In this document: one piece after another, positions 1 to 19,163 of the stretch | Layout of the letters: each line of letters opens with the position of its first letter | How positions within the stretch are numbered: position 1 is the first letter of the stretch | IMG/VR virus record: IMGVR_UViG_3300029448_000390 | Span: 5,566 to 25,644 of that record | From: a virus | DNA length: 20,079 bases | Direction: 5' to 3' (one strand) | Made by a program: the position numbers and the translations under genes | The notes under the pieces: generated by a model | What the model was told of the DNA's origin: nothing | Database searches by the model: none | What the model saw: the letters and a program-made list of their open reading frames with translations, nothing else

Positions 1-245
1 GGTGGAGTTGTGCAAACGGAGATGGCGGGGATTCATTTGCCCGCCTTGACTATGAAGATGATGATGGAGATATACCTATAGTTACACTTGTTGATTCAGG
101 ATATTGGGACTTTAGAGAGTTTGGTGGAATACCAGCAAACACAAGTTCTAATACAAATGAAAATGATGTAAATTTAGTAATCCCCTCTGCAGTAGATTCA
201 GGCAATACATACACTGTTATCGCAGAGTTCCTAAAAATCTATTAG
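1..245 (+). CDS. Virion structural/fibre-like protein, C-terminal part (5' truncated)
   Basis: An open frame enters from the left edge, with the first full codon at position 3, and ends at TAG 243-245, giving about 80 residues. The peptide is rich in Asp, Gly, Ser, Asn and Thr, carries an acidic run (YEDDDGD), and ends in a beta-strand-like stretch (YTVIAEFLKIY). That composition suits the C-terminal domain of an extracellular phage structural protein such as a fibre or tail protein, which also fits its place ahead of a late operon. The next gene begins one base after the stop. No catalytic motif is visible. The reading frame is clear; the function is inferred from composition and context only. 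Confidence 0.6.
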   Translation, partial: WSCANGDGGDSFARLDYEDDDGDIPIVTLVDSGYWDFREFGGIPANTSSNTNENDVNLVIPSAVDSGNTYTVIAEFLKIY

Positions 246-246
246 G

Positions 247-522
247 ATGGCTGACAAACAACCACCTAAGACAAAAAAATATTTCCGCTCCACAAAAAAA
301 GGAGCGGGAATGACAAAAGCTGGAGTTGCAAAATATCGTCGTGACAATCCTGGCTCTAAATTAAAAACAGCTGTAACTGGTAAAGTTAAACCAGGTTCAA
401 AAGCTGCCAAAAGAAGAAAGTCGTTCTGTGCTAGAAGTGCGGGTCAAATGAAAAAATTTCCTAAAGCTGCTGCAGATCCTAATTCGAGGCTAAGGCAGGC
501 AAGGAAGAGATGGAAATGTTAA
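247..522 (+). CDS. Small Lys/Arg-rich phage protein (91 aa), SFCARSxG type
   Basis: A strongly basic 91-aa protein. Lys and Arg are spread over its whole length, with few acidic residues. Two cysteines stand out: Cys61 in SFCARSAGQMKK and Cys91 as the very last residue, after RKRWK. I remember similar small proteins with an SFCAR core and a C-terminal WKC from marine phages, where they are hypothetical (possibly the DUF6321-type group; not verified). The ATG lies one base after the stop of the upstream structural gene, and no strong Shine-Dalgarno is visible, so coupled translation is likely. The charge suggests nucleic-acid binding or virion-internal packing. The paired cysteines could bind metal or form a disulfide. 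Neither is demonstrated by the sequence. Confidence 0.75.
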   Translation: MADKQPPKTKKYFRSTKKGAGMTKAGVAKYRRDNPGSKLKTAVTGKVKPGSKAAKRRKSFCARSAGQMKKFPKAAADPNSRLRQARKRWKC

Positions 523-1191
523 ATGGCAGCTGAAAAAATAGGAACAATAAGAGCAAGATTTTTAAAAAAGATTTTAGATAATTCTTTGAAGGCTGGAAAG
601 ATTTCCAAAAAAGAATATAATCAACTACGAAAAGAACAAGGACTTGACGGACTAAGAATAATTCAACTTGATTTATTTGATCCAGACAAGAAAAAACAAG
701 GAGGCCTTATGGAACAGGTAAACGGATTAAAAAAAATGGGCATGAAAAAAGGTGGAGCTATGAAAGAAGATCCATCTAAATTTAAAAAGAAAAGAAGACA
801 GTTAGAAGAACTTAGAAATAAACCTGGTAAGAAAAAGAAACTAACCCCGCAAGAACGTAAAGAAATGTTGGATAAAATTAATAAAGGCAGGGGTAAATTA
901 ACTAATCCTTTTATTAAATTAGATTCTATGGGCAGACCTATGATGGAAGCTAAAAAAGGTGGACTTGCTGAAGCAACTGCAAAACTAAAAGCACAAGGAC
1001 TTAAAAAAGGTGGTTTTCCTGATTTAAGTGGTGATGGAAAAGTTACAATGAAAGATATATTAATGGGCCGTGGAGTAGTTAAAAAACCAAAGAAAAAAGC
1101 TATGGGTGGATCTATGACTTTAGGTGGTAAAGGTGCCAGCAAAGTTGCAGGTAGATTAGCAAAAAGAGGGTATGGCGCTGCGAAAAAATGA
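523..1191 (+). CDS. Basic Lys/Gly-rich phage protein (222 aa) with one EF-hand-like loop
   Basis: Starts directly after the preceding stop. The N-terminal 55 residues look like an ordinary helical domain; the rest is a Lys-rich, low-complexity chain. Short KKGG or KxMGG elements recur near residues 60, 77, 146, 163 and 195, each followed by a mostly hydrophobic residue. Residues 167-178 (DLSGDGKVTMKD) match a calcium-binding EF-hand/dockerin loop: Asp1, Ser3, Asp5, Gly6, Val8, Thr9 and Asp12. Only one loop is present, so it is not a full EF-hand pair or dockerin. The gene ends with an ATGA overlap into the secreted protein gene at 1188. It is probably a virion or virion-assembly protein, by context; no enzyme motif was seen. 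Confidence 0.75.
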   Translation: MAAEKIGTIRARFLKKILDNSLKAGKISKKEYNQLRKEQGLDGLRIIQLDLFDPDKKKQGGLMEQVNGLKKMGMKKGGAMKEDPSKFKKKRRQLEELRNKPGKKKKLTPQERKEMLDKINKGRGKLTNPFIKLDSMGRPMMEAKKGGLAEATAKLKAQGLKKGGFPDLSGDGKVTMKDILMGRGVVKKPKKKAMGGSMTLGGKGASKVAGRLAKRGYGAAKK

Positions 1192-1745
1192 TCAGAGTTT
1201 TACTTGTAATTCTATTATTATCAGTATCAGTAAAAGCTTTAGCTGAAACAAATACTGTAAGTTCTACTGTTGTTACAAATAATACACCACCTACAGCCAA
1301 TTCACCCAGTGTTGTTGTAAACAATTCTGATGTTTGTAAGACGGCAGTAGCGGGCGCCGTTCAAACCCAGATCTTGGGTATTAGTAGCGGGATTACCGTC
1401 ACTGACGAAAACTGTGAAAGAATAAAATTAGCAAGATCCTTGTATGCTTCAGGAATGAAAGTGGCATCTGTGTCAATATTATGTCAAGATCCAAGAGTTT
1501 GGGATTCAATGGCCATGGCAGGTACCCCGTGCCCATACATGGGTTCTATTGGTGAAGATGCTGAAACTGGCTGGAAAGAAAACATGGATATGATTCCAGA
1601 AGGCAGTGTAGTTTATGCAAAATGGAATGATGAAATAAGTAAAATACAAGTTCTAGAAGGAGTAAAGAGTGATAAGAGTAGATTGGCAGAGTTTGTTCTC
1701 GCTGGTATTCTTTTGCACTGGGGCGTTTTTACCTTTCTCCCTTAG
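1188..1745 (+). CDS. Secreted four-cysteine phage protein (185 aa)
   Basis: The N-terminus is a textbook Sec signal peptide: MIR, a Leu/Val/Ile core (residues 4-15), then KALA followed by Glu20, a type I signal peptidase site. The mature part has a Ser/Thr/Asn-rich linker and then a compact domain with cysteines at 50, 76, 99 and 115, enough for two disulfides in the periplasm. Conserved-looking stretches are GISSGITVTDENCER and CQDPRVWDSM. The last 17 residues are strongly hydrophobic (from about AEFVLAGILLHWG), so the C-terminus may sit in a membrane. The start overlaps the upstream stop (ATGA). The last 77 nt are also read in another frame as the start of the next gene. I recall similar proteins from marine phages without assigned function. 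Confidence 0.8.
   Translation: MIRVLLVILLLSVSVKALAETNTVSSTVVTNNTPPTANSPSVVVNNSDVCKTAVAGAVQTQILGISSGITVTDENCERIKLARSLYASGMKVASVSILCQDPRVWDSMAMAGTPCPYMGSIGEDAETGWKENMDMIPEGSVVYAKWNDEISKIQVLEGVKSDKSRLAEFVLAGILLHWGVFTFLP
1656..1662 (+). promoter_or_regulatory. Ribosome binding site deciding the GTG start at 1669
   Basis: GAAGGAG lies inside the upstream gene, six bases before GTG 1669-1671. This strong Shine-Dalgarno at proper spacing supports initiation at the GTG, and therefore a true 77-nt overlap between two genes rather than a later start. The peptide that follows is a well-formed signal sequence, which supports the same start. Confidence 0.75.
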
Positions 1746-3468
1746 AGCTGAATGTCCAGTAACTGCTTCTGGAGTTTGTACTCCTGGAGTAGAAGAAACA
1801 ATTGTAATTACAGAAACAGAATCAATTGAGTATGAAGCTGATGGTCATACAGTAACTACAACTACAACGACAGATACCACAACAGTAACAGTAACCAACG
1901 AGGATTCTGGTGATATTCTTGACGGTAACAATAATTTTGTATCTTCTAGTAAAGAAGGAGATATGGATATTGATTGGGGTGGTCAAGGTCCTGCTAGTAT
2001 GCCTTCAGGTAATTCTTGTTATGAATTAGGCTCAGATAAATGTGCACAAATTACTGGATCAGGTAATTCAACGTCGACACAAGGTGTGAGTGGAATGGGA
2101 ACCACTTTTATACAGACTGTAGATATATCCTCACTTGATATAAAAAATGGAGGCAGAACAAACTATTCTATTAAAGTAGATAAAAGAGACGCAGATGATC
2201 GTATTTATATGCACATCACAGGAAAAAATGGCAATACAAGTGTCTTTTCAGGAACAGATATACTGTCAGAGTCAGGAGTAAGTAGTGGCTATCAAGAGTA
2301 TACAAATGGTTTTGATTTTGCAGGAACAATTACAAAATTAATTATAGAGGTAGGTGGACGTGATATATCTTTAGCGATTGGACCGCTCTTTGATGATGTA
2401 CGTGTAAACGTACTTTACAACGTCGTATCAACTATAATTACACAACAGATTACTACAATAGAAATGTGGATTGCATATGGTGGCAGCACAGAAACTGAAG
2501 TTATAGATATTGTAGAAAATATTTTTGAACACAATGATGTCGTAATTGATACACCACAAGATGATTTTTTCTTTGAACCAGAGTTTGATGAACCAGAAAT
2601 GGAGGTATCTTATGAAACTGTAGAGATGGAAATGGAGATGGATTATCAAATGGATTTTGAAATGGAAATGCCCGTTATGGAAGTAGAGTTTGAGATGCCA
2701 GAAATTACTGTTGAAGAAGTTAATGTAGCTTCAGTTGAGTTAGAGATGGAGATGGAACTAGAGATGGAAATAGAAATGCCTGATTTAGAATTACCTGAAC
2801 CAGATATGGAGATGCCAGAAATGGATATGGAAATGCCTGAACCAGATATGGAGATGCCAGAGACAGAGCCCGAAATGACAGAAGAGATTGAAGTTGCACC
2901 AGAACCAGATACAATGGAGCCTGAAGTAGAAGCTGAACCAGAAATGGAGGAGACAGCAAATGAAACAGAACCAGAGCCAGAATCTGAACCCGAAGTTGAG
3001 GCTGAGCCAGAACCCGTGGATGAAGCTTCTGAAGAAGATACTACAGAACCTGAAGCTGATACGGAAGAGGAGCCTGAGCCGAAAGAGAGCGTTTCAGAGG
3101 CTGAGGAGAATGAAGAGCAACCAGAAGATATGGAAGAACCAGAGGATAAGGGTAAAGCCGAAGAAAAACCTGTAAAAAAACCTGAGTCAAAAAAAGAAAA
3201 AGCAGCTAAAAAAATTGTAAAGAAGATGGGTGATAAAGGTAGATATGATTCATCAAATCAGTTAAAAACTTTAATTGTGATGCAAGTATTAGGTGACACA
3301 AAAACCTTTTTTGAATCACAAAAACAATTGGAGGATCGACTAGATTTCTTTACAGACTATATGATGCCAGATGCAGAAATACAAAACAACAATACCGCAC
3401 AGTGGTATTTATTTGGTGGAAGTGATGGTATGATGAATGATATGATAGATTTACAATGGCAGAAGTAG
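1669..3468 (+). CDS. Secreted phage protein with long acidic Glu/Met/Pro repeat (599 aa)
   Basis: The GTG start is fixed by an upstream GAAGGAG. Residues 1-27 form a Sec signal peptide (WQSLFSLVFFCTGAFLPFSLRA, written here only as a hydrophobic stretch, then Glu-Cys-Pro). Residues about 30-65 are Thr-rich, and about 90-270 form a beta-rich domain (GNSCYELGSDKCAQITGSGN and onward) that may bind or assemble extracellularly. Residues about 300-500 are extremely acidic, built from EMEMEM and PEPDMEMPE units, with a 26-nt perfect DNA repeat at 2794-2819 and 2836-2861. Then come a Lys-rich stretch (about 502-520) and a C-terminal domain with LKTLIVMQVLGDTKTFF and a Trp-containing tail. I remember that C-terminal domain from marine phages; its function is unknown. 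It overlaps the next gene by 13 nt. Confidence 0.8.
   Translation: MIRVDWQSLFSLVFFCTGAFLPFSLRAECPVTASGVCTPGVEETIVITETESIEYEADGHTVTTTTTTDTTTVTVTNEDSGDILDGNNNFVSSSKEGDMDIDWGGQGPASMPSGNSCYELGSDKCAQITGSGNSTSTQGVSGMGTTFIQTVDISSLDIKNGGRTNYSIKVDKRDADDRIYMHITGKNGNTSVFSGTDILSESGVSSGYQEYTNGFDFAGTITKLIIEVGGRDISLAIGPLFDDVRVNVLYNVVSTIITQQITTIEMWIAYGGSTETEVIDIVENIFEHNDVVIDTPQDDFFFEPEFDEPEMEVSYETVEMEMEMDYQMDFEMEMPVMEVEFEMPEITVEEVNVASVELEMEMELEMEIEMPDLELPEPDMEMPEMDMEMPEPDMEMPETEPEMTEEIEVAPEPDTMEPEVEAEPEMEETANETEPEPESEPEVEAEPEPVDEASEEDTTEPEADTEEEPEPKESVSEAEENEEQPEDMEEPEDKGKAEEKPVKKPESKKEKAAKKIVKKMGDKGRYDSSNQLKTLIVMQVLGDTKTFFESQKQLEDRLDFFTDYMMPDAEIQNNNTAQWYLFGGSDGMMNDMIDLQWQK
2590..3160 (+). repeat. Acidic low-complexity repeat tract within the 599-aa protein gene
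   Basis: The tract is a purine-rich run of GAAATGG/GAGATGG units that moves into GAACCAGA/GAGCCTGA units. It encodes first alternating Glu-Met and then Glu-Pro-Glu motifs. A perfect 26-nt direct repeat (2794-2819 and 2836-2861) lies 42 nt, or 14 codons, apart, so recent in-frame duplication is likely. The tract should be prone to length change between relatives. Confidence 0.85.
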
Positions 3469-4007
3469 AATTACCAGGCGGAATAAAATTTAAAGGTGGC
3501 AAGATTTTTGTCATACTTACAGCTTTGACTACAGCTGGTGGGGCACTATGGGGTGGTTTTGAATTTTACAAAGATTATCTCACAATGAAAGAACAGATAC
3601 AAGAATACGTAGCACCAGACCTATCTGGCTTTGATAAAGATATAGCTGTTATGAAAGAAGAAATGGACAGCAAGACTGATCTAATACAAACAGAAGTAGA
3701 AATGCTTATGTCTGAAATGGAAATGATGATGCAAGAAATTAGACTTGTGGCAGATGTAGCTAATGAATTAAAAAACGATTTACGACAAGATGTTAGAAGA
3801 GTAGAGAAAATTGTTAATGACGTAGAGCAACAAGTTAAGATTGACTCCAGAGAAAATTCTGCAGATCTAAAACATACAAGCAGTGAGATTGAGGCAAACA
3901 TGGAAGAATTAAAAGATGATCTGGAAGCAGCCATGATTGTGCTACAAGAAAAAATAGATAAGCAAATAAAATCTGCATTATCTAATCCTTTATCACAGAT
4001 GAAGTAA
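3456..4007 (+). CDS. Membrane-anchored coiled-coil phage protein (183 aa)
   Basis: Residues 1-15 are polar and basic (GIKFKGGK) and are followed by one hydrophobic segment at about 17-34 (IFVILTALTTAGGALWGG). Most of the rest, about 40-170, has the heptad-like charged/hydrophobic pattern of a long coiled coil, with a Met-rich part (EVEMLMSEMEMMMQEI). By the positive-inside rule the short N-terminus should be cytoplasmic and the coil periplasmic. It is the third consecutive envelope-directed gene and overlaps the 599-aa gene by 13 nt. Possible roles are a spanin-like or lysis-accessory protein, a membrane anchor for the two secreted neighbours, or a virion protein acting at entry. None is proven. 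No lipobox is present, so a classical o-spanin is unlikely. Confidence 0.75.
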   Translation: MAEVELPGGIKFKGGKIFVILTALTTAGGALWGGFEFYKDYLTMKEQIQEYVAPDLSGFDKDIAVMKEEMDSKTDLIQTEVEMLMSEMEMMMQEIRLVADVANELKNDLRQDVRRVEKIVNDVEQQVKIDSRENSADLKHTSSEIEANMEELKDDLEAAMIVLQEKIDKQIKSALSNPLSQMK

Positions 4008-4138
4008 TGGCCAAAACGCCTTCTAACGAATACTTTACACCAGTCAAAAAAAGGACTAGTATAGGTCGTTCTTCACGCACTAGGCCAAAGAATAAAAACA
4101 AAAGACGTCAATACGTTAAATACAGGGGGCAAGGGTGA
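4007..4138 (+). CDS. Tiny basic phage protein (43 aa), KRTSIGRS type
   Basis: A short open frame fills the otherwise empty gap between two genes. ATG 4007 shares its A with the preceding stop (TAATG), and the TGA at 4136-4138 overlaps the GTG start of the next gene (GTGA). The 43 residues include KKRTSIGRSSRTRPKNKNKR and end in KYRGQG. I recall this KRTSIG...KNK...KYRGQG pattern in other marine phages, which argues that the frame is real despite its size. The peptide is almost purely cationic and disordered-looking. A role in DNA or RNA binding, or as packed virion cargo, is inference only. Confidence 0.65.
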   Translation: MAKTPSNEYFTPVKKRTSIGRSSRTRPKNKNKRRQYVKYRGQG

Positions 4139-4425
4139 CTAAATTATGTCCAAGAGGTAAAGCTGCAGCTAAGCGTAAATTTAAGGTTTATCCTAGCGCA
4201 TATGCTAATGCCTATGCTTCTAGAATATGTGCTGGTAAAATAAAAGACCCAAGTGGTAAAAAAAGAAAAGATTTTAAAGGTCCAAAAAGAGCTATGGGCG
4301 GAGTTATAGATTTTAATAAACTTTCACAGCAACGTAAAAAAGTATCTGCCATGAACAAAGGTGGAATGGCAAGAGCATGTGGCGCTGTAATGGAAAGCAA
4401 AAGAAAAATAACTAAGTTTAGTTAA
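4135..4425 (+). CDS. Small basic phage protein (96 aa), LCPRGKAAAKRKF type
   Basis: It begins with GTG in a GTGA overlap with the 43-aa gene; a GGGGG run about six bases upstream can serve as the ribosome binding site. The N-terminal half (LCPRGKAAAKRKFKVYPSAY, then ANAYASRICAG) looks like a conserved small fold with Cys5 and Cys32. The C-terminal half is Lys-rich with KRAMGGVI (residues 51-58) and NKGGMA (74-79), motifs shared with neighbouring basic proteins, plus Cys82. I remember the N-terminal half from many marine phage genomes, always without assigned function. It ends in TAATG, coupling it to the next gene. Confidence 0.75.
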   Translation: MTKLCPRGKAAAKRKFKVYPSAYANAYASRICAGKIKDPSGKKRKDFKGPKRAMGGVIDFNKLSQQRKKVSAMNKGGMARACGAVMESKRKITKFS

Positions 4426-4757
4426 TGGCTAAAAGTGGTCTTGATAAATGGTTTGCTCAAAAATGGGTAGACATAGGCAGCAAGAAAAAAGATGGATCTT
4501 TTTCTAAATGTGGAAGATCAAAACAAAAAGCAGATGCTAAACGTAAATATCCTAAATGTGTTCCTCTTGCAAAAGCAAGACGAATGAGTGAAGGACAACG
4601 AAAATCTGCAGTACAAAGAAAAAGAAGTAAAGCACAAGGTGTTGGTGGTAAACCAACAAATGTTAAAACATTTGCAAAAGCTTCTGGTGGATTAATATCT
4701 AATAGCAGAAGAGCTGGAGCAGCTGTAAGAGGTTTTGATTTCAAAGGTGTCTTTTAA
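4425..4757 (+). CDS. Small basic phage protein (110 aa), possible DUF5872-like
   Basis: Start and previous stop overlap (TAATG) without a clear Shine-Dalgarno, so translation probably depends on the upstream gene. The N-terminal region WFAQKWVDIGSKKKDGSF leads into SKCGRSK (Cys29) and YPKCVPLAKARRM (Cys45). This Cys-pair/Lys-rich layout resembles the small phage and cyanobacterial DUF5872 family as I remember it; not verified. The C-terminal part has FAKASGGLIS, another copy of the basic-GG-hydrophobic element, and a Gly/Arg-rich tail. A structural metal site at the two cysteines or a nucleic-acid role is possible. The function is unknown. Confidence 0.75.
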   Translation: MAKSGLDKWFAQKWVDIGSKKKDGSFSKCGRSKQKADAKRKYPKCVPLAKARRMSEGQRKSAVQRKRSKAQGVGGKPTNVKTFAKASGGLISNSRRAGAAVRGFDFKGVF

Positions 4758-4912
4758 TGCCTTTAAATCAAAAAGGCAGAAAGATAATGAAATCAATGAA
4801 AGGTACCTACGGTAAAGATGCTAAAGCTGTTTTCTATGCATCAAAAAACAAAGGAGTAATAAAAGGTGTTGAAAAGAAAAGATCCAAAAAAGGGAACAGG
4901 AAAAAAACCTAA
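4757..4912 (+). CDS. Tiny basic phage protein (51 aa), MPLNQKGRKIMKSM type
   Basis: This open frame starts at ATG 4757 in a TAATG overlap and stops at TAA 4910-4912. AAGGTG eight bases upstream can act as a ribosome binding site. The sequence includes MPLNQKGRKIMKSMKGTYGK, then AVFYASKNKGVIKGVEK, and finishes in a Lys/Arg run. I recall near-identical short proteins from marine phages, often with the FYASxNKGxIKGV segment, so I accept it as a gene. Its last 47 nt overlap the next gene in another frame. That part is Lys-rich in both readings, as A-rich DNA would be. Function unknown; it is strongly cationic. Confidence 0.65.
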   Translation: MPLNQKGRKIMKSMKGTYGKDAKAVFYASKNKGVIKGVEKKRSKKGNRKKT

Positions 4913-5162
4913 AGGTAGTGGAAGACGTCTCTATACTGACGAAAACCCTCGTGATACTGTGGGTATTAAGTTTGCTACTCCTAGTGACGCCAGGTCAACA
5001 GTTGCGAAAGTTAAAAAAATTAATAAACCGTTTGCTAGAAAAATACAAATCCTAACAGTGGGGGAGCAAAGAGCTAAAGTTATGGGTAAGTCAGAAGCAG
5101 CAAGTATATTTAGAAAGGGTAAAGATGTCATTAGAAGAGGAAGTAAAAAAAGACGTACGTAG
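4866..5162 (+). CDS. Small basic phage protein (98 aa), KKGTGKKPKGSGRRLYTDE type
   Basis: The GTG start at 4866 follows AAAGGAG at about 4850, so spacing is slightly long but workable. The protein opens with a basic Gly/Lys segment (GTGKKPKGSGRRLYTDENP). Next comes a folded-looking part (TVGIKFATPSDARSTVAKVK, then INKPFARKIQILTVGEQRAK), and it ends in a basic tail. I recall the ATPxDARxTVAKVKKINKP...QILTVGEQRAKVMGK stretch as conserved in marine phages with no assigned function. The stop lies 38 nt inside the following gene, a long overlap by phage standards. The later ATG-initiated neighbour has its own AAAGGG site. Confidence 0.7.
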   Translation: MLKRKDPKKGTGKKPKGSGRRLYTDENPRDTVGIKFATPSDARSTVAKVKKINKPFARKIQILTVGEQRAKVMGKSEAASIFRKGKDVIRRGSKKRRT

Positions 5163-5703
5163 ATGGTCTGAAATTTATTTAGAAGTTCCTAATGTTCATT
5201 TAGGAGGTTATCCAGCATGTCCTTTTGCAAAAAAAACTTGGACAGATAATAAGGTTGTCGTAGGAGTAAAGAGAAAACACAAATGGTATAAATCAGAATT
5301 AAATGGTTATTTGAAGCACCTTGATTTTAGTGTTCATGAGCTATTGATATTCTGTGACCCATACTTTAATTACAGTCTGGAAGATTTTCAAACGGCGATA
5401 GATGAGTACAATTATTGGTATAATAAAAAGGACATATTTTTTATGGGTTTTCATCCCAGCAACCCAGCAAACGAGGAGGAGCAAGAGTTCCTCGTCACTC
5501 CAAATGGGAGCACCCCGATTATAGAAGACAGCCTCAACTACTCTATGATGCTGGCACAAAAGTTCTCGCAATTACAAGAAGCTTCTGATAAACTACACAA
5601 AGCTGGTTACTATAAGAAGTGGCCAAAAGGGTATTATCGAGACGTCGTGGTATCTAGGGCTAAAACATATAAACGAATATTCGGAGGTCGACATGATGGG
5701 TAA
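5125..5703 (+). CDS. Hypothetical phage protein with CPFAKK motif (192 aa)
   Basis: Unlike its neighbours this is a normal globular protein, balanced in charge and rich in Tyr and Trp. Residues 12-40 (RRWSEIYLEVPNVHLGG, then YPACPFAKKTW) recall the DUF1415-type arrangement, in which a helical W..E segment precedes an LCPFA motif. The match is from memory and weak. Other visible parts are LLIFCDPYFNY, a repeated Tyr/Trp stretch YNYWYNKKDIFF, and a helical C-terminus. It starts 38 nt inside the preceding gene with AAAGGG upstream, and its end overlaps the next start. It is the only non-basic gene in this part of the cluster; no function is assigned. Confidence 0.7.
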   Translation: MSLEEEVKKDVRRWSEIYLEVPNVHLGGYPACPFAKKTWTDNKVVVGVKRKHKWYKSELNGYLKHLDFSVHELLIFCDPYFNYSLEDFQTAIDEYNYWYNKKDIFFMGFHPSNPANEEEQEFLVTPNGSTPIIEDSLNYSMMLAQKFSQLQEASDKLHKAGYYKKWPKGYYRDVVVSRAKTYKRIFGGRHDG

Positions 5704-6088
5704 AAAGAAAATGGCCATGAAACGTGGTGGCAAAGTTAAAGGTAAGAAGAAAGCTGTAAAAAAACGTGGCGGCGGCATGATGGAAAAAGCTATGGGTGGT
5801 GCAATATCACCTCGTAAGAAAATGGCTATGGGCATGATGGGCGGCGGCATGATGGCTAAAAAGAAAATGGCTGGTGGCGGAATGGCTGGTAAGAAAAAAC
5901 AAGCTATGAAAAAAGGCGGTGTTCCAACAGCTAAACGCAAAAAATCACCACCAGGTATGTCTGATAAAGCAAAATCATTTTTTGCAAAAGTTAGAATGGC
6001 AAGAACTATAAAACCTTCTGGTAGAATTAATACAGATGACATCAAAAGAGCTGGCAAGCTTATTAATAAAAGAGCAAAAGGTAAGTAA
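5693..6088 (+). CDS. Lys/Met/Gly-rich basic phage protein (131 aa)
   Basis: Residues 1-85 are almost only Lys, Met, Gly and Ala (KKKMAMKRGGKVKGKKKAV, MGMMGGGMMAKKKMAGGGMA). They contain repeated RGG, KAMGG and KKGG elements and in-frame DNA repeats, including a 13-nt repeat at 5771-5783 and 5843-5855. The C-terminal 45 residues look more ordinary (SDKAKSFFAKVRMARTIK, then DIKRAGKLINKRAKGK) and may be a helical, DNA-contacting end. A strong GGAGG lies about five bases before the ATG. The gene ends in TAATG with the head-tail gene. The composition suggests a disordered polycation that could neutralise DNA or line the capsid; this is inferred, not shown. Confidence 0.75.
   Translation: MMGKKKMAMKRGGKVKGKKKAVKKRGGGMMEKAMGGAISPRKKMAMGMMGGGMMAKKKMAGGGMAGKKKQAMKKGGVPTAKRKKSPPGMSDKAKSFFAKVRMARTIKPSGRINTDDIKRAGKLINKRAKGK
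5771..5855 (+). repeat. In-frame direct repeat pair in the Lys/Met/Gly-rich gene
   Basis: The 13-mer GGCGGCATGATGG occurs at 5771-5783 and again at 5843-5855, exactly 72 nt (24 codons) apart, each encoding Gly-Gly-Met-Met in the same frame. Similar GGC/ATG-rich units lie between them, so the low-complexity region probably grew by in-frame duplication. Confidence 0.75.
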
Positions 6089-6786
6089 TGCCAACTTATG
6101 CATCTACTGCTGCTTTTGATTTAGCTATAGATGATATAGCTGAAGAGGCTTATGAACGTTGTGGTTTGCAAATACGTGGTGGATACGATTTGCAGACTGC
6201 AAGACGTTCTTTAAATATTTTATTAGCAGAGTGGGCAAACAGAGGGTTAAATCTTTGGACAATACAATTACAAGAAAAAACAATTACAGCTAATACAACA
6301 AGTGTTTCAGGAACAAGTTTATTTGGATCTAATGCAAATGATAGTCAACAAATAGTTGATATTACAGATGTAGTTTTAAGGGACAGTAGTAATAATGATT
6401 TTGCTGCTACTTCAATTAGTAGATCTACTTATTTTAATTTTACAACTAAAACAACCAGCGGAAGGCCAACTCAATACTATTTTGAACGTACGATAAACCC
6501 AACACTATTTCTATATCCCGCAGCAGATGTAGCTTACACTCTAAAATATTATGCTCTTGTTCGGATGTTTGATGCTGGCGACTACACAAATAATGCTCAA
6601 ATCCCTTTTCGTTTTCTTCCATGTATGACCGCTGGTTTAGCTTATTACATTAGTATGAAAAAAGCTCCAGAAAGAATTGGAACATTAAAACAAATTTATG
6701 AAGATGAATTTCAAAGAGCTGCTGATCAAGACGGTGAAAGAACTAGTTTGTTTCTTACTCCTAAAACTTATTTACCTAGTATTTAA
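6088..6786 (+). CDS. Head-tail connector/adaptor-like structural protein (232 aa)
   Basis: Residues about 12-60 (DLAIDDIAEEAYERCGLQIR, then a helix ending LNILLAEWANRGLNLWTIQ) show a helix pair typical of small phage head-tail joining proteins. There, an AxxxLN..LxxWxxxGLxLWT pattern links a DNA-gate-facing helix to a beta sandwich, as in P22 gp4-like and related adaptors. The middle is beta-rich with STYFNFTTKTTSGRPTQYYF and LFLYPAAD; a PTxYYxER...LxLYPxPD pattern is familiar from these proteins. The C-terminus is helical with FRFLPCMTAGLAYYISMKKA. It is TAATG-coupled on both sides and lies two genes before an SU10-like adaptor. The family-level call is from memory; a head-tail interface role is likely. 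Confidence 0.7.
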   Translation: MPTYASTAAFDLAIDDIAEEAYERCGLQIRGGYDLQTARRSLNILLAEWANRGLNLWTIQLQEKTITANTTSVSGTSLFGSNANDSQQIVDITDVVLRDSSNNDFAATSISRSTYFNFTTKTTSGRPTQYYFERTINPTLFLYPAADVAYTLKYYALVRMFDAGDYTNNAQIPFRFLPCMTAGLAYYISMKKAPERIGTLKQIYEDEFQRAADQDGERTSLFLTPKTYLPSI

Positions 6787-11524: not shown

Positions 11525-11768
11525 GAGTAGATCCCAACATATCTTTTAAAGATGGTGCAAATACTTTTACGTCTCTTTGAATTTTTTCTGCAGTTGTAGA
11601 AGTGTTTGGATCGTCTATATCTGCTTGCATGGCAGCTTCTGATTCATACTCTTGACCTGTATCTTTGTTAGTTAAAGTAGTTTCTGTTTTAACTTTGTAT
11701 CTAGGAATTACTCTTCCATCTTCGAGAGTCATTGTTCCTATTTTTTCTGCGTTTTCAACTATCGGCAT
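11517..11768 (-). CDS. Small virion-type protein (83 aa)
   Basis: Last gene of the minus-strand unit. GGAGA lies about eight bases before the ATG. The sequence GTMTLEDGRVIPRYKVKTE is followed by an acidic stretch (GQEYESEAAMQADIDDPNTS) and TAEKIQRDVKVFAPSL. I recall the EADIDDPxTxTxxxDIxRDVxVFAPSLG pattern from cyanophages and other marine phages, where it is annotated only as a hypothetical or virion protein. It overlaps the end of the oxygenase gene upstream of it by 14 nt. Its stop lies inside the 3' end of the convergent 59-aa gene. No catalytic residues are apparent. Confidence 0.7.
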   Translation of the reverse strand: MPIVENAEKIGTMTLEDGRVIPRYKVKTETTLTNKDTGQEYESEAAMQADIDDPNTSTTAEKIQRDVKVFAPSLKDMLGSTPK

Positions 11769-12348
11769 TTTCGTGTCTCCAATTAATATTAAAACTTAAA
11801 ATAACTCTATCTTGATTAGAATTATTAAGTTGTACTTCATGTTGTAACCATGATGGAAAAAAAATCAAGCTATTCTCTTTTGGTTCCCAAGAAACGCTGT
11901 GTGCTAAGTGTATAGAAGCGTCTTTTTTCTTTGGTGGCGATAAGACCTCTGCTTGTGGTTTTGGCTCCAAAAACACTAAATTTCCGCTTTTAGAGGGCAC
12001 TTTTAAGTAGTAAACACCAGATATATAATTATAGGGATGAGTATGCACATTGTTTCTAGATCCAGGTGGATTTATCATACCCCAAAGGCCAGTCATTTCA
12101 GGACAATATTCATCTTGTACATCAAGATTATTAAAACATTCTTTTGCTTTTAATAAAATGTCAGCTACTGTGCTTTTAAATTCTAAGTCTTTGTAGAGTT
12201 CATCGTGACTATGCCATCCACCAACATTTGATCTAGGCATACCCTTTTCGTCTTTTTGTTTTATTTCATAAAGTCTGTCAATTAAATGACTATGACCTTT
12301 AATTTCTGTCATCATGACAGGTGTAATAAATAACGATTGTAATTCCAT
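11755..12348 (-). CDS. 2OG-Fe(II) oxygenase-like protein, TIGR02466 type (197 aa)
   Basis: The double-stranded beta-helix signature is clear. NNVHTHPYNYISGVYYLKVP (residues 99-118) supplies His102 and His104, SGNLVFLEP forms the next strands, and FFPSWLQHEV (163-172) supplies the distal His170. Arg181 in DRVILSFNINW would bind the 2-oxoglutarate carboxylate. This is the TIGR02466/2OG-FeII_Oxy_5 arrangement, in which the usual HxD is often HxH. Such enzymes couple 2-oxoglutarate decarboxylation to hydroxylation of a substrate; here the substrate is unknown. TAAGGAG seven bases before the ATG is a strong ribosome binding site. It lies between two virion-type genes. Confidence 0.85.
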   Translation of the reverse strand: MELQSLFITPVMMTEIKGHSHLIDRLYEIKQKDEKGMPRSNVGGWHSHDELYKDLEFKSTVADILLKAKECFNNLDVQDEYCPEMTGLWGMINPPGSRNNVHTHPYNYISGVYYLKVPSKSGNLVFLEPKPQAEVLSPPKKKDASIHLAHSVSWEPKENSLIFFPSWLQHEVQLNNSNQDRVILSFNINWRHENADS

Positions 12349-12885: not shown

Positions 12886-13416
12886 CTATTGTTTATTATA
12901 AAAAAGACTTAAAGTCATTCTAAATTTAGGACCTACTTTTGATTGTGGACGTATTGTATGTGGTATTTGACCATCAAATAAAATAATTCTACCTGGCACA
13001 AAAGCACTAGCAAATATAATCTTATTAAAATCAAATTTGTCAAAAAACAAAGTCTCTCCGTACCACCCATCTCTCCAATTCAAATTCAGGTAAACTAACA
13101 CAACTTGTGAACCTCTATGGGAGTGTATGTGATGAACATCCTCTGATTTTACAAGGTTCAAAACTGCAGTGCTAAGATTTTCGTTAGTAAACCAACTTGT
13201 TTCTTTAATACAAGGTTTAATAAACTCTAGTATTTTAGTTCTGTTTAAATCCTCCAAGGACCATTCAGAATGTAAGTTAGGATCTGTAATGTGTTCACCT
13301 GAAGCAAAATCATTCCATCCTATTTTAAAATTACAACGACTAGCGTATGTATATAATACATCTCTAAATTCTAAAGGAATTATATTATCGTAAAATTTTA
13401 TATTATCTTCTGCCAT
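12886..13416 (-). CDS. 2OG-Fe(II) oxygenase-like protein (176 aa), unusual metal site
   Basis: The beta-helix fold is indicated by HHIHSHRGSQVVLVYLNLNW (residues 95-114), GWYGETLFFD (117-126), GRIILFDGQIPHTIRP (142-157) and FRMTLSLFY (165-173). The distal His153 and Arg166 fit the Fe and 2-oxoglutarate ligands of prolyl-4-hydroxylase-like phage enzymes. At the first site the family normally has HxD; here I see HIHSHRG, so the metal must be held by His-x-His or the enzyme may be altered. The ATG is 14 nt inside the end of the nozzle-like gene. Substrate is unknown. It is a different subfamily from the two TIGR02466-like proteins of this unit. Confidence 0.75.
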   Translation of the reverse strand: MAEDNIKFYDNIIPLEFRDVLYTYASRCNFKIGWNDFASGEHITDPNLHSEWSLEDLNRTKILEFIKPCIKETSWFTNENLSTAVLNLVKSEDVHHIHSHRGSQVVLVYLNLNWRDGWYGETLFFDKFDFNKIIFASAFVPGRIILFDGQIPHTIRPQSKVGPKFRMTLSLFYNKQ

Positions 13417-16062: not shown

Positions 16063-16778
16063 ATTAATTTTTTATAAGCATCTTTTAAATAAGAAAAGAA
16101 ATCATATTTAAACCTTTCAATTTTTTTATCTGAAAAAGGTTTTTTTTGTGTTACTTTCATTTTCCAATTATCTCTTTTAAAAGGAAATACATTAGCTACT
16201 AGAAATCCTTTTGATATAATTTTATTTGGATTTAAAGTTTCATCCCAATCTTGCAAGTAAAAAGTAAAGTTTACAGGTTGACTATATTCATCTGTGTCAA
16301 CAATACCTGTAACGAGTCTTACATCTGTCTTCTCTCTGTTAAAAGGACCTGTAAAAAGACAACTATAGCCTGGTGGTGTTTTTATTGTCCATGGGTTTAA
16401 AAATTTAAAAGGTATTGGTATTTCATTTGGATGCAACATGTTATCTGGCACTTGAAATTTATAATGACCCAATGCCCCAATATTAGCTTCAGGATATGCG
16501 CCTTTTACATCATTAAAAATATTTCCTGCTTGAATATTAATTTCTTTAACACCAGTATTTTCATTTATTTTTTTTGTAAACATAATATCAAATGGCAATT
16601 TTATAACGTAACCACAAGTCATAGCATCTAAAAAAGGCACACATTTTTTAACCGTGGGATCATTAAGATCATTGTTCATATGTGTTTCAAATTTTTTTAA
16701 CCAATCAGGTGTAGCTTTACTAAGTGGGACTGGTTTATCAATTAAGTCTGCGTATTGACTAAAAAATTCTATTTTCAA
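16038..16778 (-). CDS. Uncharacterised phage protein, possible DUF6065-like (246 aa)
   Basis: Starts at TTG in a TTGA overlap with the preceding stop, with AGAGAAG nearby as ribosome binding site. The conserved-looking core is KKCVPFLDAMTCGYVIKLPF, then a beta-rich region with LLHPNEIPIPFKFLNPWTIK as a loose pattern, followed by TPPGYSCLFTGPFN. The end is basic (KKLIWKKKIYK). The C-P-F-L-D-A-M-T-x-GY start followed by NPWTIKTPPGYSxLFTxPxN recalls DUF6065-like proteins; I cannot confirm this. In other marine phages it accompanies glycosyltransferase and oxygenase genes, as here. No metal-binding triad is evident. Confidence 0.65.
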   Translation of the reverse strand: MKIEFFSQYADLIDKPVPLSKATPDWLKKFETHMNNDLNDPTVKKCVPFLDAMTCGYVIKLPFDIMFTKKINENTGVKEINIQAGNIFNDVKGAYPEANIGALGHYKFQVPDNMLHPNEIPIPFKFLNPWTIKTPPGYSCLFTGPFNREKTDVRLVTGIVDTDEYSQPVNFTFYLQDWDETLNPNKIISKGFLVANVFPFKRDNWKMKVTQKKPFSDKKIERFKYDFFSYLKDAYKKLIWKKKIYK

Positions 16779-17287
16779 AATTCTTCTCTATAAAAAATAT
16801 TTAAAGTGTATCTTTCTGAACTTTCACCAAAAGATTGTAAGTCTGAGTGCGGTATTTCAGCTCCGTTAAAAAACAAAGCTCTATTTTCTACAAAACCTAT
16901 GTGTGAAGATAGTGAATTATTATGCATAAAACCTGTGCCATTATTAAGAAGAGGTTCTCCTTTTGCAAAAAATAAAAAATTAGCTGCATTATCTTTTGCA
17001 ATGTCTCTATGAAACATAGCCTCTTTATCATTAATTCTTTTATGTGCAGATACACTTATAGGAACTAAATTTCTATGAGGAAAAAAATACCCTTTAATTA
17101 ATTTTAATAATGGATCATCGTGAAAACTTTTTGGAAAAGTGTGACGCTTACCAATAATTCTCCCTGTTCCGTCTTTTGATTCTCCGTATTTTAGTGTTAA
17201 TAAAGTTTCTTGTAAAGAATGTAATGTTTTTGCCTCTAAAAAATTATCTAAGTACATTACAAATTTAGTCTGTCTAGTGTGTTGCAT
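16775..17287 (-). CDS. 2OG-Fe(II) oxygenase-like protein (170 aa), intact HxD
   Basis: Residues 91-107 (MFHRDIAKDNAANFLFF) give His93-x-Asp95. The later GFVENRALFFNGAEIPHSDL (131-150) gives His147, and ERYTLNIFY (158-166) gives Arg159, so a full 2-His-1-carboxylate iron site and a 2-oxoglutarate anchor are visible. The N-terminal half (VMYLDNFLEAKTLHSLQETL) is the usual helical lead-in. The protein is shorter than most stand-alone hydroxylases but within the range of phage members. The start overlaps the 90-aa gene by 14 nt, and its stop overlaps the next TTG start. Its substrate is unknown; neighbours suggest virion or surface modification. Confidence 0.75.
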   Translation of the reverse strand: MQHTRQTKFVMYLDNFLEAKTLHSLQETLLTLKYGESKDGTGRIIGKRHTFPKSFHDDPLLKLIKGYFFPHRNLVPISVSAHKRINDKEAMFHRDIAKDNAANFLFFAKGEPLLNNGTGFMHNNSLSSHIGFVENRALFFNGAEIPHSDLQSFGESSERYTLNIFYREEF

Positions 17288-17546
17288 ATTCTACCTGTAA
17301 ATATTCTATTTTTCTAACCCACCCTCTTGGTATGGCTATTGCTCCCCCTCCATGATTATCATCTTTATCTGTGCACCATGAACGCATAATAACTATTTTG
17401 TCATCATTGTTTACGACCATGTATCCTACTTCTTGGCACACGGCCAACGGAGCAGATAAGATTTCTTTTACATCTAACCATCCTGTTTCCGTATCACGTG
17501 CATCTTGCCACGTTATTCTCACCATAGGTATTTTATTTATATCCAT
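17274..17546 (-). CDS. Small conserved phage protein (90 aa), MVRITWQDA type
   Basis: The protein has a compact alpha/beta look: MVRITWQDARDTETGWLD, VKEILSAPLAVCQEVGYMVV, NDDKIVIMRSWCTDKDDN, and IAIPRGWVRKIEYLQ. I recall the W-x-D-A...GW-x-x...TVGYxVxxxxxKIxxxxS...IPxGxVxxIxxL layout as common in marine phages and related bacterial genes, with no known function. AAGGATGG marks the start region, and the gene overlaps the end of the oxygenase upstream of it by 14 nt. It is the only clearly non-oxygenase gene at the head of this unit. No metal ligands or signal sequence stand out. Confidence 0.7.
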   Translation of the reverse strand: MDINKIPMVRITWQDARDTETGWLDVKEILSAPLAVCQEVGYMVVNNDDKIVIMRSWCTDKDDNHGGGAIAIPRGWVRKIEYLQVEYATH

Positions 17547-18207
17547 CCTTATTAAACTCTTTTTTCTTTTTTAAATGTAAATTAAAAGACACAGATCTTC
17601 TTTCTTCATTAGGTGTTCTAAATGGATAAACACCGTGAGAAAGCCATGCAGGAAAAAGATAAATAGCTCCAACCTCTGGAGTCGCTTGATGTTTGTGACC
17701 ACTAAAATGTGCTGCTTGACCAGCATGCCAAACTATATCACCGACACAAGGATAATGATCTTCTTTTGCATATTCTTCTTTTAAACTAGGAGGCACACGT
17801 AGATAAATTACACCCGATAATTCACCTTGATGAATATGAAAAGGGTTGAAGTCTCCCGCCCATTGGCTCACGGACCACATAGATTCAATAACCATAGCAC
17901 CAACATAGTCGGGTGATATTGTATCTGACGCTGGTGGAATAGATATGTATTGTTTTACGATTTCACCTAATGCTTTTACCACAGGTGCAAAAGTTTCACT
18001 TCCTAAAAACTCATCAGGGTAACGCACTTCTTTTTGAACATTGCCAGCCAAATGCATAGAGTGGTCATACTTTTTATATAATTCATCATTATCAAATAAT
18101 TCAGTTGCCTTATCATCTAATATTTTAATCATATATTCAGGCAATTTACCTTGAAATATAGTAGGGCCAAAAGGTCTAATTGCGTGAAATTCTACTTCAG
18201 TCGACAT
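17533..18207 (-). CDS. 2OG-Fe(II) oxygenase-like protein, TIGR02466 type (224 aa)
   Basis: The first gene of the minus-strand unit, with AAGGAAG before the ATG. Core elements are WAGDFNPFHIHQGELSGVIY (residues 116-135) with His124 and His126, then the loop GDIVW...HFSGHKHQATPEVG, and AIYLFPAWLSHGVYPF (181-196) with His191. Arg203 or Arg204 before SVSFNL would bind 2-oxoglutarate. The HxH pair, SGVIYL strand and FPAWLSH match TIGR02466-type proteins, as does the 197-aa protein at 11755-12348. The pair differs enough elsewhere that they may act on different targets. It lies beside the divergent promoter region and probably leads transcription of the whole unit. Confidence 0.85.
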   Translation of the reverse strand: MSTEVEFHAIRPFGPTIFQGKLPEYMIKILDDKATELFDNDELYKKYDHSMHLAGNVQKEVRYPDEFLGSETFAPVVKALGEIVKQYISIPPASDTISPDYVGAMVIESMWSVSQWAGDFNPFHIHQGELSGVIYLRVPPSLKEEYAKEDHYPCVGDIVWHAGQAAHFSGHKHQATPEVGAIYLFPAWLSHGVYPFRTPNEERRSVSFNLHLKKKKEFNKDGYK

Positions 18208-18341: not shown

Positions 18342-19163
18342 ATGCTCAAAGGATTAAAGGGAATATTAGAAAAAGGTTTACAGATTGCAGCGCCGTTAAT
18401 TGGTAATGCAATACTACCAGGAGGTTTCGGTGCAGCAGCAGGAACAGGCATAGCTTCACTATTATCAGGAGCAAAACCAAGAGATGCTCTATTACAAGCT
18501 ACAGCAGCAGGAGTATTAGGTAGACAATTTTCACCAGCAGCAGGTAAGCAAACATCTTCTGGAAATCCTTTAGTTGATTTTTTTCAGAGAGGCACTAGAC
18601 AAACTAATACAGGCGGTAATCTACCAAAGGAACAGAGTTTATTTAGTAAAGTAGGAGGGGCATTGATGCAAGATGGAAAGCCCACGGCTCTCGGAACAGG
18701 TTTAGCTGTAGGATTACCAGCGATATTAGCAGGTATAGGAGCGGCAGCTGATGCAAGAAAAGCACAACCTATGGACCCAGCAAATTACATGAGTGCAGTT
18801 GATAGAGAATATGGTGGACAATTTGCATCCCCACCAGCAAATAGAAGAATTATGAATATAGATCCAGTGAACAGAGCAGATGGTGGCATCATGGATTCAA
18901 TGCCAAATCAAAATATTTCATTTAGCGCTGTAGATGGTAGTGATATGGGTGGTGTCATGACAATGGCTGATGGCGGTCAAACATTTCCAAGAAAAACAGG
19001 GATGATAAATGGACCTGGAGGTCCAAAAGAAGATAAGATTCCAGCAATGTTAAGCGATGGTGAATTTGTATTTACTGCAAAAGCAGTTGACAATGCAGGT
19101 GGACCAAAGGCTATGTATAATATGATGAACAAACTTGACCCAGAATCGGAGAAACCAAACTAA
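18342..19163 (+). CDS. Probable internal/ejected virion protein, Gly/Ala-rich (273 aa)
   Basis: AAAGGAGA precedes the ATG. Residues 1-60 contain a Gly/Ala/Leu-rich amphipathic stretch (LQIAAPLIGNAILPGGFGAA), and about 115-136 (ALGTGLAVGLPAILAGIGAA) could enter a membrane. The C-terminal third carries KTGMINGPGGPKEDKIPAM, LSDGEFVFTAKAVDNAGGP and MYNMMNKLDP, a segment I recall from many marine phages, sometimes fused to virion proteins. Its two RADGGIM/MADGGQT elements resemble the GG motif of the basic proteins. Membrane-seeking segments suggest a role in DNA ejection across the host envelope (inference). TAATG couples it to the next gene; both follow the strong promoter. Confidence 0.65.
   Translation: MLKGLKGILEKGLQIAAPLIGNAILPGGFGAAAGTGIASLLSGAKPRDALLQATAAGVLGRQFSPAAGKQTSSGNPLVDFFQRGTRQTNTGGNLPKEQSLFSKVGGALMQDGKPTALGTGLAVGLPAILAGIGAAADARKAQPMDPANYMSAVDREYGGQFASPPANRRIMNIDPVNRADGGIMDSMPNQNISFSAVDGSDMGGVMTMADGGQTFPRKTGMINGPGGPKEDKIPAMLSDGEFVFTAKAVDNAGGPKAMYNMMNKLDPESEKPN

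Follow-up and report, generated by a model that had tools for sequence, protein, structure and literature searches.

Small basic genes in the virion operon of an HTVC023P-type podovirus

We analysed a 20,079-nucleotide stretch of the virus record IMGVR_UViG_3300029448_000390 (hereafter the window; bases 5566-25644 of the 25,644-base record), in which a run of small basic genes includes two whose proteins end in short conserved peptides, here termed tags A and B. Peptides of this kind, including a third form, tag C, end many unrelated small basic proteins of abundant ocean and lake phages, a pattern that looks like an address label into the particle. Bases 1-5900 of the parent record encode homologues of HTVC023P GroES (50% identity), scaffold (44%), gp38 (44%), gp39 (41%) and the major capsid protein (MCP; 57.5%), and the window comes next. 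GroES, scaffold, two small head genes, MCP and then the adaptor stand in the same order as in the assembly module of HTVC023P-type podoviruses, and the window belongs to the late (virion) operon of such a phage. A preliminary description of the window had counted seven strongly basic proteins of 43-222 amino acids (aa) between positions 247 and 6088; the run is real, and computation of open reading frames (ORFs) and isoelectric points (pI) puts the number at eight (pI 10.5-12.0). These are listed with the two tags and the adjoining adaptor.

247-522, + strand: DUF6321 protein, 91 aa, untagged (PF19846, 1.6e-12), with matches to eight PHROG profiles that fall at their ends or close to them
523-1191, + strand: basic GG-rich protein, 222 aa, ending AKRGYGAAKK, with none of tags A-C
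4007-4138, + strand: basic protein, 43 aa, ending KYRGQG, a tail conserved in relatives (11 proteins)
4135-4425, + strand: YPSAYA-family small basic protein, 96 aa, with tag B after the GG arm NKGGMA (PHROG 27331, E 5.5e-20)
4372-4425, + strand: tag B, the 17 C-terminal residues of the 96-aa protein, RACGAVMESKRKITKFS, and the stop; homologues end ARACGAVM or AKGCGAVM
4425-4757, + strand: WVDIG-family small basic protein, 110 aa, with tag A after the GG arm KASGGLI (PHROG 23735, E 2.6e-26)
4707-4757, + strand: tag A, the 16 C-terminal residues of the 110-aa protein, RRAGAAVRGFDFKGVF, and the stop; the second Gly of the pattern is replaced by Arg
4757-4912, + strand: basic protein, 51 aa (MPLNQKGRK..), untagged, with N-terminal similarity to HTVC023P gp32, which itself ends in tag A
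4866-5162, + strand: basic protein, 98 aa, untagged, start codon uncertain; 45 proteins have this best match, 0 of them tagged A-C
5693-6088, + strand: Lys/Gly/Met-rich basic protein, 131 aa, with internal GG repeats, untagged; no relative among the collected loci
6088-6786, + strand: head-tail adaptor of the module adjoining the tags, like the 'Pam1 adaptor protein' of DSL-LC04 in place and sequence and in the place of the 'portal-adaptor' of Pag-Yong1

The 247-522 protein belongs to DUF6321 with 48.3 bits against a Pfam gathering cut-off of 28.5. Four neutral or acidic genes are interspersed in the run (1188-1745, 1669-3468, 3456-4007 and 5125-5703). One of them, 1669-3468, encodes a protein of 599 aa that is very acidic (pI 4.1), contains long repeats rich in Glu, Met and Pro, and could be a counter-charge partner of the basic proteins.

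The preliminary description had also pointed to a Lys-rich GG element shared by four proteins of the run, and every instance that it named is present, including RADGGIM and MADGGQT in the gene at 18342-19163. Counting the pattern [KR]x{0,2}GG[AVILMFSYWP] in the eight basic proteins gave 17 occurrences against 4.7 ± 2.5 in composition-preserving shuffles (n = 5000, of which one reached 17), and 12 against 3.0 (4/5000) after exclusion of the low-complexity 5693 protein, while plain GG was just mildly elevated (121/5000). The over-represented element therefore stands as an observation, and chance is an unlikely cause. In two of the four proteins it lies directly before a conserved C-terminal peptide: the 4135-4425 protein ends NKGGMA-RACGAVMESKRKITKFS-stop and the 4425-4757 protein KASGGLISNS-RRAGAAVRGFDFKGVF-stop. 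In 523-1191 and 5693-6088 the elements lie inside the protein, within stretches rich in Lys and Gly, and no conserved C-terminal tail follows them. GG was found within 16 residues upstream of the tag core in 104/163 tag A, 57/112 tag B and 111/118 tag C proteins (shuffle means 22, 17 and 16, respectively). The GG element is the upstream arm of a larger C-terminal element; as a tag in its own right we rejected it, the tag being the C-terminal peptide after GG. The RADGG and MADGG forms, which had been taken as related, sit before a different, tape-measure-type module and are not tags A-C. In the same gene (18342-19163), a GPGGPKEDKIPAMLSDGEFVFTAKAV module matches portions of many tape-measure PHROGs.

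A double-Gly processing site had been offered as one meaning of the element. This has no support in the data: the GG is found close to the C-terminal end, with variable flanks and at variable distances from the tag, and stands near the tag in no more than the 57 of 112 tag B proteins given above. A double-glycine leader of the kind recognised by C39 peptidases was rejected because the tag-linked GG is C-terminal and does not end an N-terminal leader, and a PHROG scan of 20 window proteins gave no match to a C39 protease or exporter. The adenovirus-type protease site has the consensus (M/I/L)xGG, to which the window arms before the tags (NKGG and KASGG) do not conform.

C-terminal tags and their dialects

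The consensus forms are RGxGxA[IV]xGxxFxGVx-stop for tag A, RGCGxVMxxRRKxT plus 3-8 residues for tag B, and DGIAxRGKTRGxxx-stop for tag C. The tagged proteins of HTVC023P are gp30, gp32 and gp51; gp51, the homologue of 4135-4425, ends SRGGGAAVRGMGFKGVF, gp32, a protein distinct from gp51, ends RGVGAAIRGHKFIGVK, and gp52, the homologue of 4425-4757, is without the tail. This comparison of homologues at 4425-4757 and in HTVC023P therefore led to a degenerate search of viral contigs for tag A. The DNA pattern, written for RGxGxA[IV]xGxxFxGV with no stop codon included, matched at least 120 stretches, and in the 80 loci examined of at least 120, 94 of 96 matches had one residue after Val and then a stop; the remaining two, in L086 and L100, look like chance matches. 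A codon-reversed control pattern gave 0 matches in the same viral collection, and tag A plus stop gave four matches in 257 Gb of prokaryote genomes, and all four contigs also have phage genes belonging to this module.

The viral contigs were likewise scanned for tag B (RGCGxV[ML]xx[RK][RK]KxT) and tag C (DGIAx[RK]G[RK]T[RK]G), again with no stop codon in the pattern. Tag B occurred in at least 120 loci, with its first Arg 17-22 residues before the stop in 120/120 matches listed. Tag C, to which the cyanobacterial relative Pag-Yong1 pointed, gave at least 166 matches in at least 120 loci; among the 166 matches listed, 159 lay no more than 40 residues from the stop and 116 at exactly 14, and the most copies on one contig were five (L347). 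By regular expression, tags A, B and C were found in 177, 114 and 119, respectively, of the 7270 genes called in the loci. Other tails are shared on a smaller scale, namely D (RGMNRDAIGKNS), F (YYKDLL/YYKGM), KTPIY, and G (RGLGRAFMKGGRV), the last on two unrelated neighbouring genes in L039. Dialect F also shows in the YPSAYA proteins of L019, L327 and L328, which end with one to three residues after YYKD or YYKG, in the WVDIG neighbour in L019 and L328, and in HTVC023P gp53, which ends YYKDIM. In L068 and L072, the tail KGGFKKKTPIY or KGFKNKTPIY is shared by unrelated genes of one contig.

A blind within-contig comparison of tails in the tag C loci detected 55 C-terminal pairs at a score of at least 50, against 0-1 in controls; one top pair, in L396, is not a tag. 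A tblastn search of named phages with the bare composite tag found nothing and is uninformative, given a short query of low complexity. We found no account of C-terminal tags in open full texts (preprints and most subscription papers excluded), and no tag description in the consulted part of PMC9599517 on HTVC023P-type phages.

At the invariant Gly, Ala, Val and Thr positions of the tag DNA all four codons are in use, and 129 distinct DNA tags encode 96 peptides with the same residue frame. Residues stay fixed while their synonymous codons vary, so it is the peptide that is under selection. The several repeats per operon (up to five in L347) would suit a DNA-level element, such as a recombination or packaging site or an overlapping regulatory sequence, translated by happenstance; this is barely credible, and was rejected, in view of the synonymous codon variety at invariant positions and of matches that are in frame and C-terminal in nearly all cases. 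Drift of A/G-rich codons, which the preliminary description had named as another possible source, is refuted by the shuffles, the empty codon-reversed control and the free synonymous variation under fixed residues.

Unrelated basic bodies in one virion module

We then considered the proteins that carry the tags. After removal of the tail, 160 tag A proteins fell into 59 N-terminal clusters at one setting and 18-26 with looser linkage, and the tag C and tag B proteins into 74 and 11 clusters, respectively. Across all loci, tails A and B were found on 27 and 17 members of the YPSAYA family, with none of A-C on 140, and on 13 and 44 members of the WVDIG family, with none on 117; with the strict expression, two DUF6321 proteins had tag C and 190 had none, and many of the proteins counted as untagged in these three families carry looser B forms or D, E or F tails. 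DUF6321 relatives with tag C occur in L408, L418 and L450. In alignment, one WVDIG body appears with tails A, B, F or none, and among the 37 proteins with 523-1191 as best reference match, 13 carry tag A, three tag C and one tag B. The 4425-4757 protein has 595 relatives in viral contigs. A WVDIG-family gene is also present, unannotated, in the deposited record of DSL-LC04 (L084:14989-15267). That bodies and tails plainly recombine, in several dialects, is what ordinary domain shuffling would give, in which duplication and recombination would spread a neutral tail and recent common descent would preserve it. We regard this as highly improbable, because the 129 DNA tags yield 96 peptides in the same residue frame on bodies of many unrelated clusters, and conservation reaches the terminal residues.

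Tagged bodies without the tail are strongly basic (median pI 10.2, 90% above 9; n = 386), compared with 35% above pI 9 among untagged same-strand neighbours within 4 kb (n = 2033), with genes called by a simple longest-ORF rule. A Pfam and PHROG scan of ten tagged bodies assigned no function, and one of the ten, in L350, aligns with the N-terminal parts of two PHROGs annotated as virion structural protein. A single loop, PDLSGDGKVTMKDILMGRGV, recurs in many tagged and untagged small phage proteins (window 523-1191; L347; HTVC027P gp44) and may be dockerin- or EF-hand-like, judging by resemblance.

A structural gene like those of HTVC023P, the window or other reference phages was present in 340 of 358 tag loci (A, 109/118; B, 117/120; C, 114/120); the reference genes come mostly from the HTVC023P-type module, so that other phage types would go unrecognised in this count. 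Among 364 tagged genes in the module test, 14 had no structural gene in their locus, and for the other 350 the nearest structural gene was on the same strand in every case (350/350) and was the adaptor in 183. Dialect labels changed 10 times on the adaptor tree and 12 times on the MCP tree, against 60 and 42 with shuffled labels. Dialects that follow the virion lineage are as expected if the tag is read by the virion. Tags A and B occur together in nine loci, the window included, and tag C stands alone, without A or B, in 82/82 loci. Two long records, of 59 and 64.5 kb, each have three tag C matches, all within ~1.2 kb of sequence, and none elsewhere.

These data also bear on two further explanations. 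Given their high Arg, Lys and Gly content and their basic bodies, tags A-C might be RG/K-rich extensions that raise affinity for DNA or RNA without a protein receptor. This is quite unlikely: charge-driven binding would need neither the fixed spacing, nor the invariant Phe, Val and Ala (preset in the search pattern), nor an exact distance to the C-terminal end; moreover, the dialects differ in order yet track the virion lineage, and dialect F (YYKDLL/YYKGM) is not basic. Alternatively, the tag might act after ejection, guiding proteins to a host factor or marking them for host proteolysis, given that dialects may go with host groups and that small proteins near the virion module can be ejected effectors. 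We consider such a host-directed signal very unlikely, as the tagged set is basic and lies in the virion module, the tag C matches of both long records are confined to ~1.2 kb, and all four prokaryote contigs with tag A plus stop have phage genes.

Elsewhere in the window, 11755-12348 encodes a 2OG-Fe(II) oxygenase (phrog_81, E 2.1e-37) within a block of reverse-strand genes. The genes at 12886-13416, 16775-17287 and 17533-18207 resemble it by appearance, the profile scan having covered, of these four, 11755-12348.

A candidate docking signal and its relation to known systems

Taken as a whole, these results make it fairly probable that the C-terminal peptide serves in docking, as the signal by which small basic proteins are loaded into the head. 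A virion docking tag is thus the best supported of the three meanings proposed in the preliminary description, with the amendment that the tag is the peptide after GG and comes in several dialects. We infer that the tag binds, that its partner is part of the assembling particle, and that the tagged proteins come to lie, and have a role, in the head. During assembly, the disordered tail may bind a prohead component (capsid lining, scaffold, portal or adaptor), and this binding would load a changeable set of small basic proteins along with the packaged DNA, which they probably help to neutralise. Each virion lineage would read its own dialect or dialects (A, B, C or others), and with such lineage-specific dialects a body moving between lineages would have to acquire the local tail. 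More tentatively, we can envisage a modular cargo code, in which a lineage-specific C-terminal address peptide is read by one head component and any small basic protein can be loaded; the dozens of unrelated proteins might then act as a 'nucleoprotein' set of exchangeable members, packed together with the genome and perhaps injected with it, and a body that changed lineage would swap its dialect.

The structure models are in keeping with a linear docking peptide. In the AlphaFold2 model of the window 4425 protein (mean pLDDT 64), approximately residues 5-70 are ordered, the remainder is poor, and the tail at 83-110 is disordered (pLDDT < 50), as expected of such a peptide. The model had no fold match in the PDB below E 6.9, and the DUF6321 model, although good (pLDDT 88), had no PDB fold match. 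The window adaptor and the window 4425 protein have no sequence relative in the PDB, and the Pag-Yong1 adaptor gave one non-significant match.

Relatives of the bodies occur in virions of T4-like cyanophages. In these phages WVDIG and YPSAYA domains are fused, and S-RIM50 also has DUF6321 in that chain. The loci L333:3723-5471 (S-RIM50) and L334:4239-5132 (S-CREM2) are one-chain fusions of basic domains for which the window has separate genes. With the S-B68 protein (both WVDIG and YPSAYA) as query, 365 phage records matched, not all of them covering both domains, and the S-B68 record labels its own WVDIG/YPSAYA member as structural. By sequence comparison, S-CREM2 ORF160 consists of WVDIG plus YPSAYA and ORF137 carries DUF6321 at its C-terminus, which makes them relatives of the window proteins 4425, 4135 and 247; in the consulted portion of PMC10665884 (Table 3), the proteome of CsCl-purified S-CREM2 virions includes ORF160 and ORF137 with 7 and 4 unique peptides, respectively. 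T4-GC119 is termed hypothetical in the consulted part of PMC3037559. The earlier suggestion of a DNA-neutralising cargo set thus gains indirect support, from the strong basicity of the tagged bodies and from untagged relatives of three window domains in cyanophage virion proteins.

The same data bear on an assembly-only signal, in which the tag would tether proteins to the scaffold or prohead and be cut or released at maturation, the proteins being assembly helpers or a morphogenetic core and not cargo. Tagged genes do belong to the assembly module, with genes for GroES, scaffold and capsid as neighbours, and the tag is C-terminal and predicted to be disordered. This explanation is nevertheless unlikely: no conserved cleavage-like site precedes the tag, GG stands at variable distances and is missing from the vicinity of the tag in 55/112 tag B proteins, no head-protease annotation was noticed beside tagged genes, without a systematic search, and body relatives persist in mature S-CREM2 virions, as far as the consulted portion of that source reports.

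Several observations weigh against a docking signal. The virion detection covers untagged relatives only, S-CREM2 being a cyanomyovirus whose ORF160 and ORF137 lack tags A-C. Many copies of the same bodies are untagged, and same-module relatives appear without tags A-C in CRP-902, QDWS535, RW and HTVC027P (bar a divergent tail in the last), so that the tag is dispensable. Dialects that track the module tree would also arise under plain descent, and the co-occurrence of A and B in nine loci means that one dialect per lineage is not strict. A tag C-like sequence lies near the N-terminus of five small proteins (L356, L364, L367, L416 and L459), and the blind tail comparison in loci not selected by tag gave just three C-terminal pairs at a score of at least 50 (controls 0). 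Finally, composite tags A and C and the HTVC023P MCP have no sequence relative in the PDB, and tag B matched PDB sequences in a zinc-finger repeat only, with no significant stretch.

HTVC023P-type pelagiphages are widespread and among the most abundant in nature, according to the part of PMC9599517 consulted, and almost all of their small basic genes are labelled 'hypothetical'. If true, a terminal label common to the proteins would explain why many unrelated genes occupy the virion operon, and a sequence rule on the last 14-22 residues would predict virion cargo among unannotated genes. It would also supply a peptide with which foreign proteins could be loaded into HTVC023P-type heads. The tags moreover connect the pelagiphage basic set with the small basic domains of cyanophage virions.

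Compared with known systems, the window shares with HTVC023P-type podoviruses the gene order GroES-scaffold-MCP-small basic genes-adaptor. The basic proteins of T4-like cyanophages (S-CREM2 ORF160/ORF137 and S-RIM50 R290704_108) have the same WVDIG, YPSAYA and DUF6321 domains, but there they are fused as parts of one or two longer chains, which lack tags A-C. Peptides that direct loading into capsids are already known from T4 and encapsulins. The internal proteins of phage T4 carry an N-terminal capsid targeting sequence that is cut off by the head protease gp21; like the tags, it is a short peptide common to different small proteins loaded into the head during assembly, whereas tags A-C are not N-terminal but C-terminal, with no cleavage site found. 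Closer in form are the cargo-loading (targeting) peptides of encapsulins, which are short, linear and C-terminal on unrelated cargo proteins and dock on the inner surface of an HK97-fold shell; the tags are likewise short linear C-terminal peptides on unrelated proteins and, in the one model, disordered when free. The encapsulin peptides serve cellular compartments, whereas those described here have other sequences, belong to tailed-phage proteins and would be read by a putative receptor.

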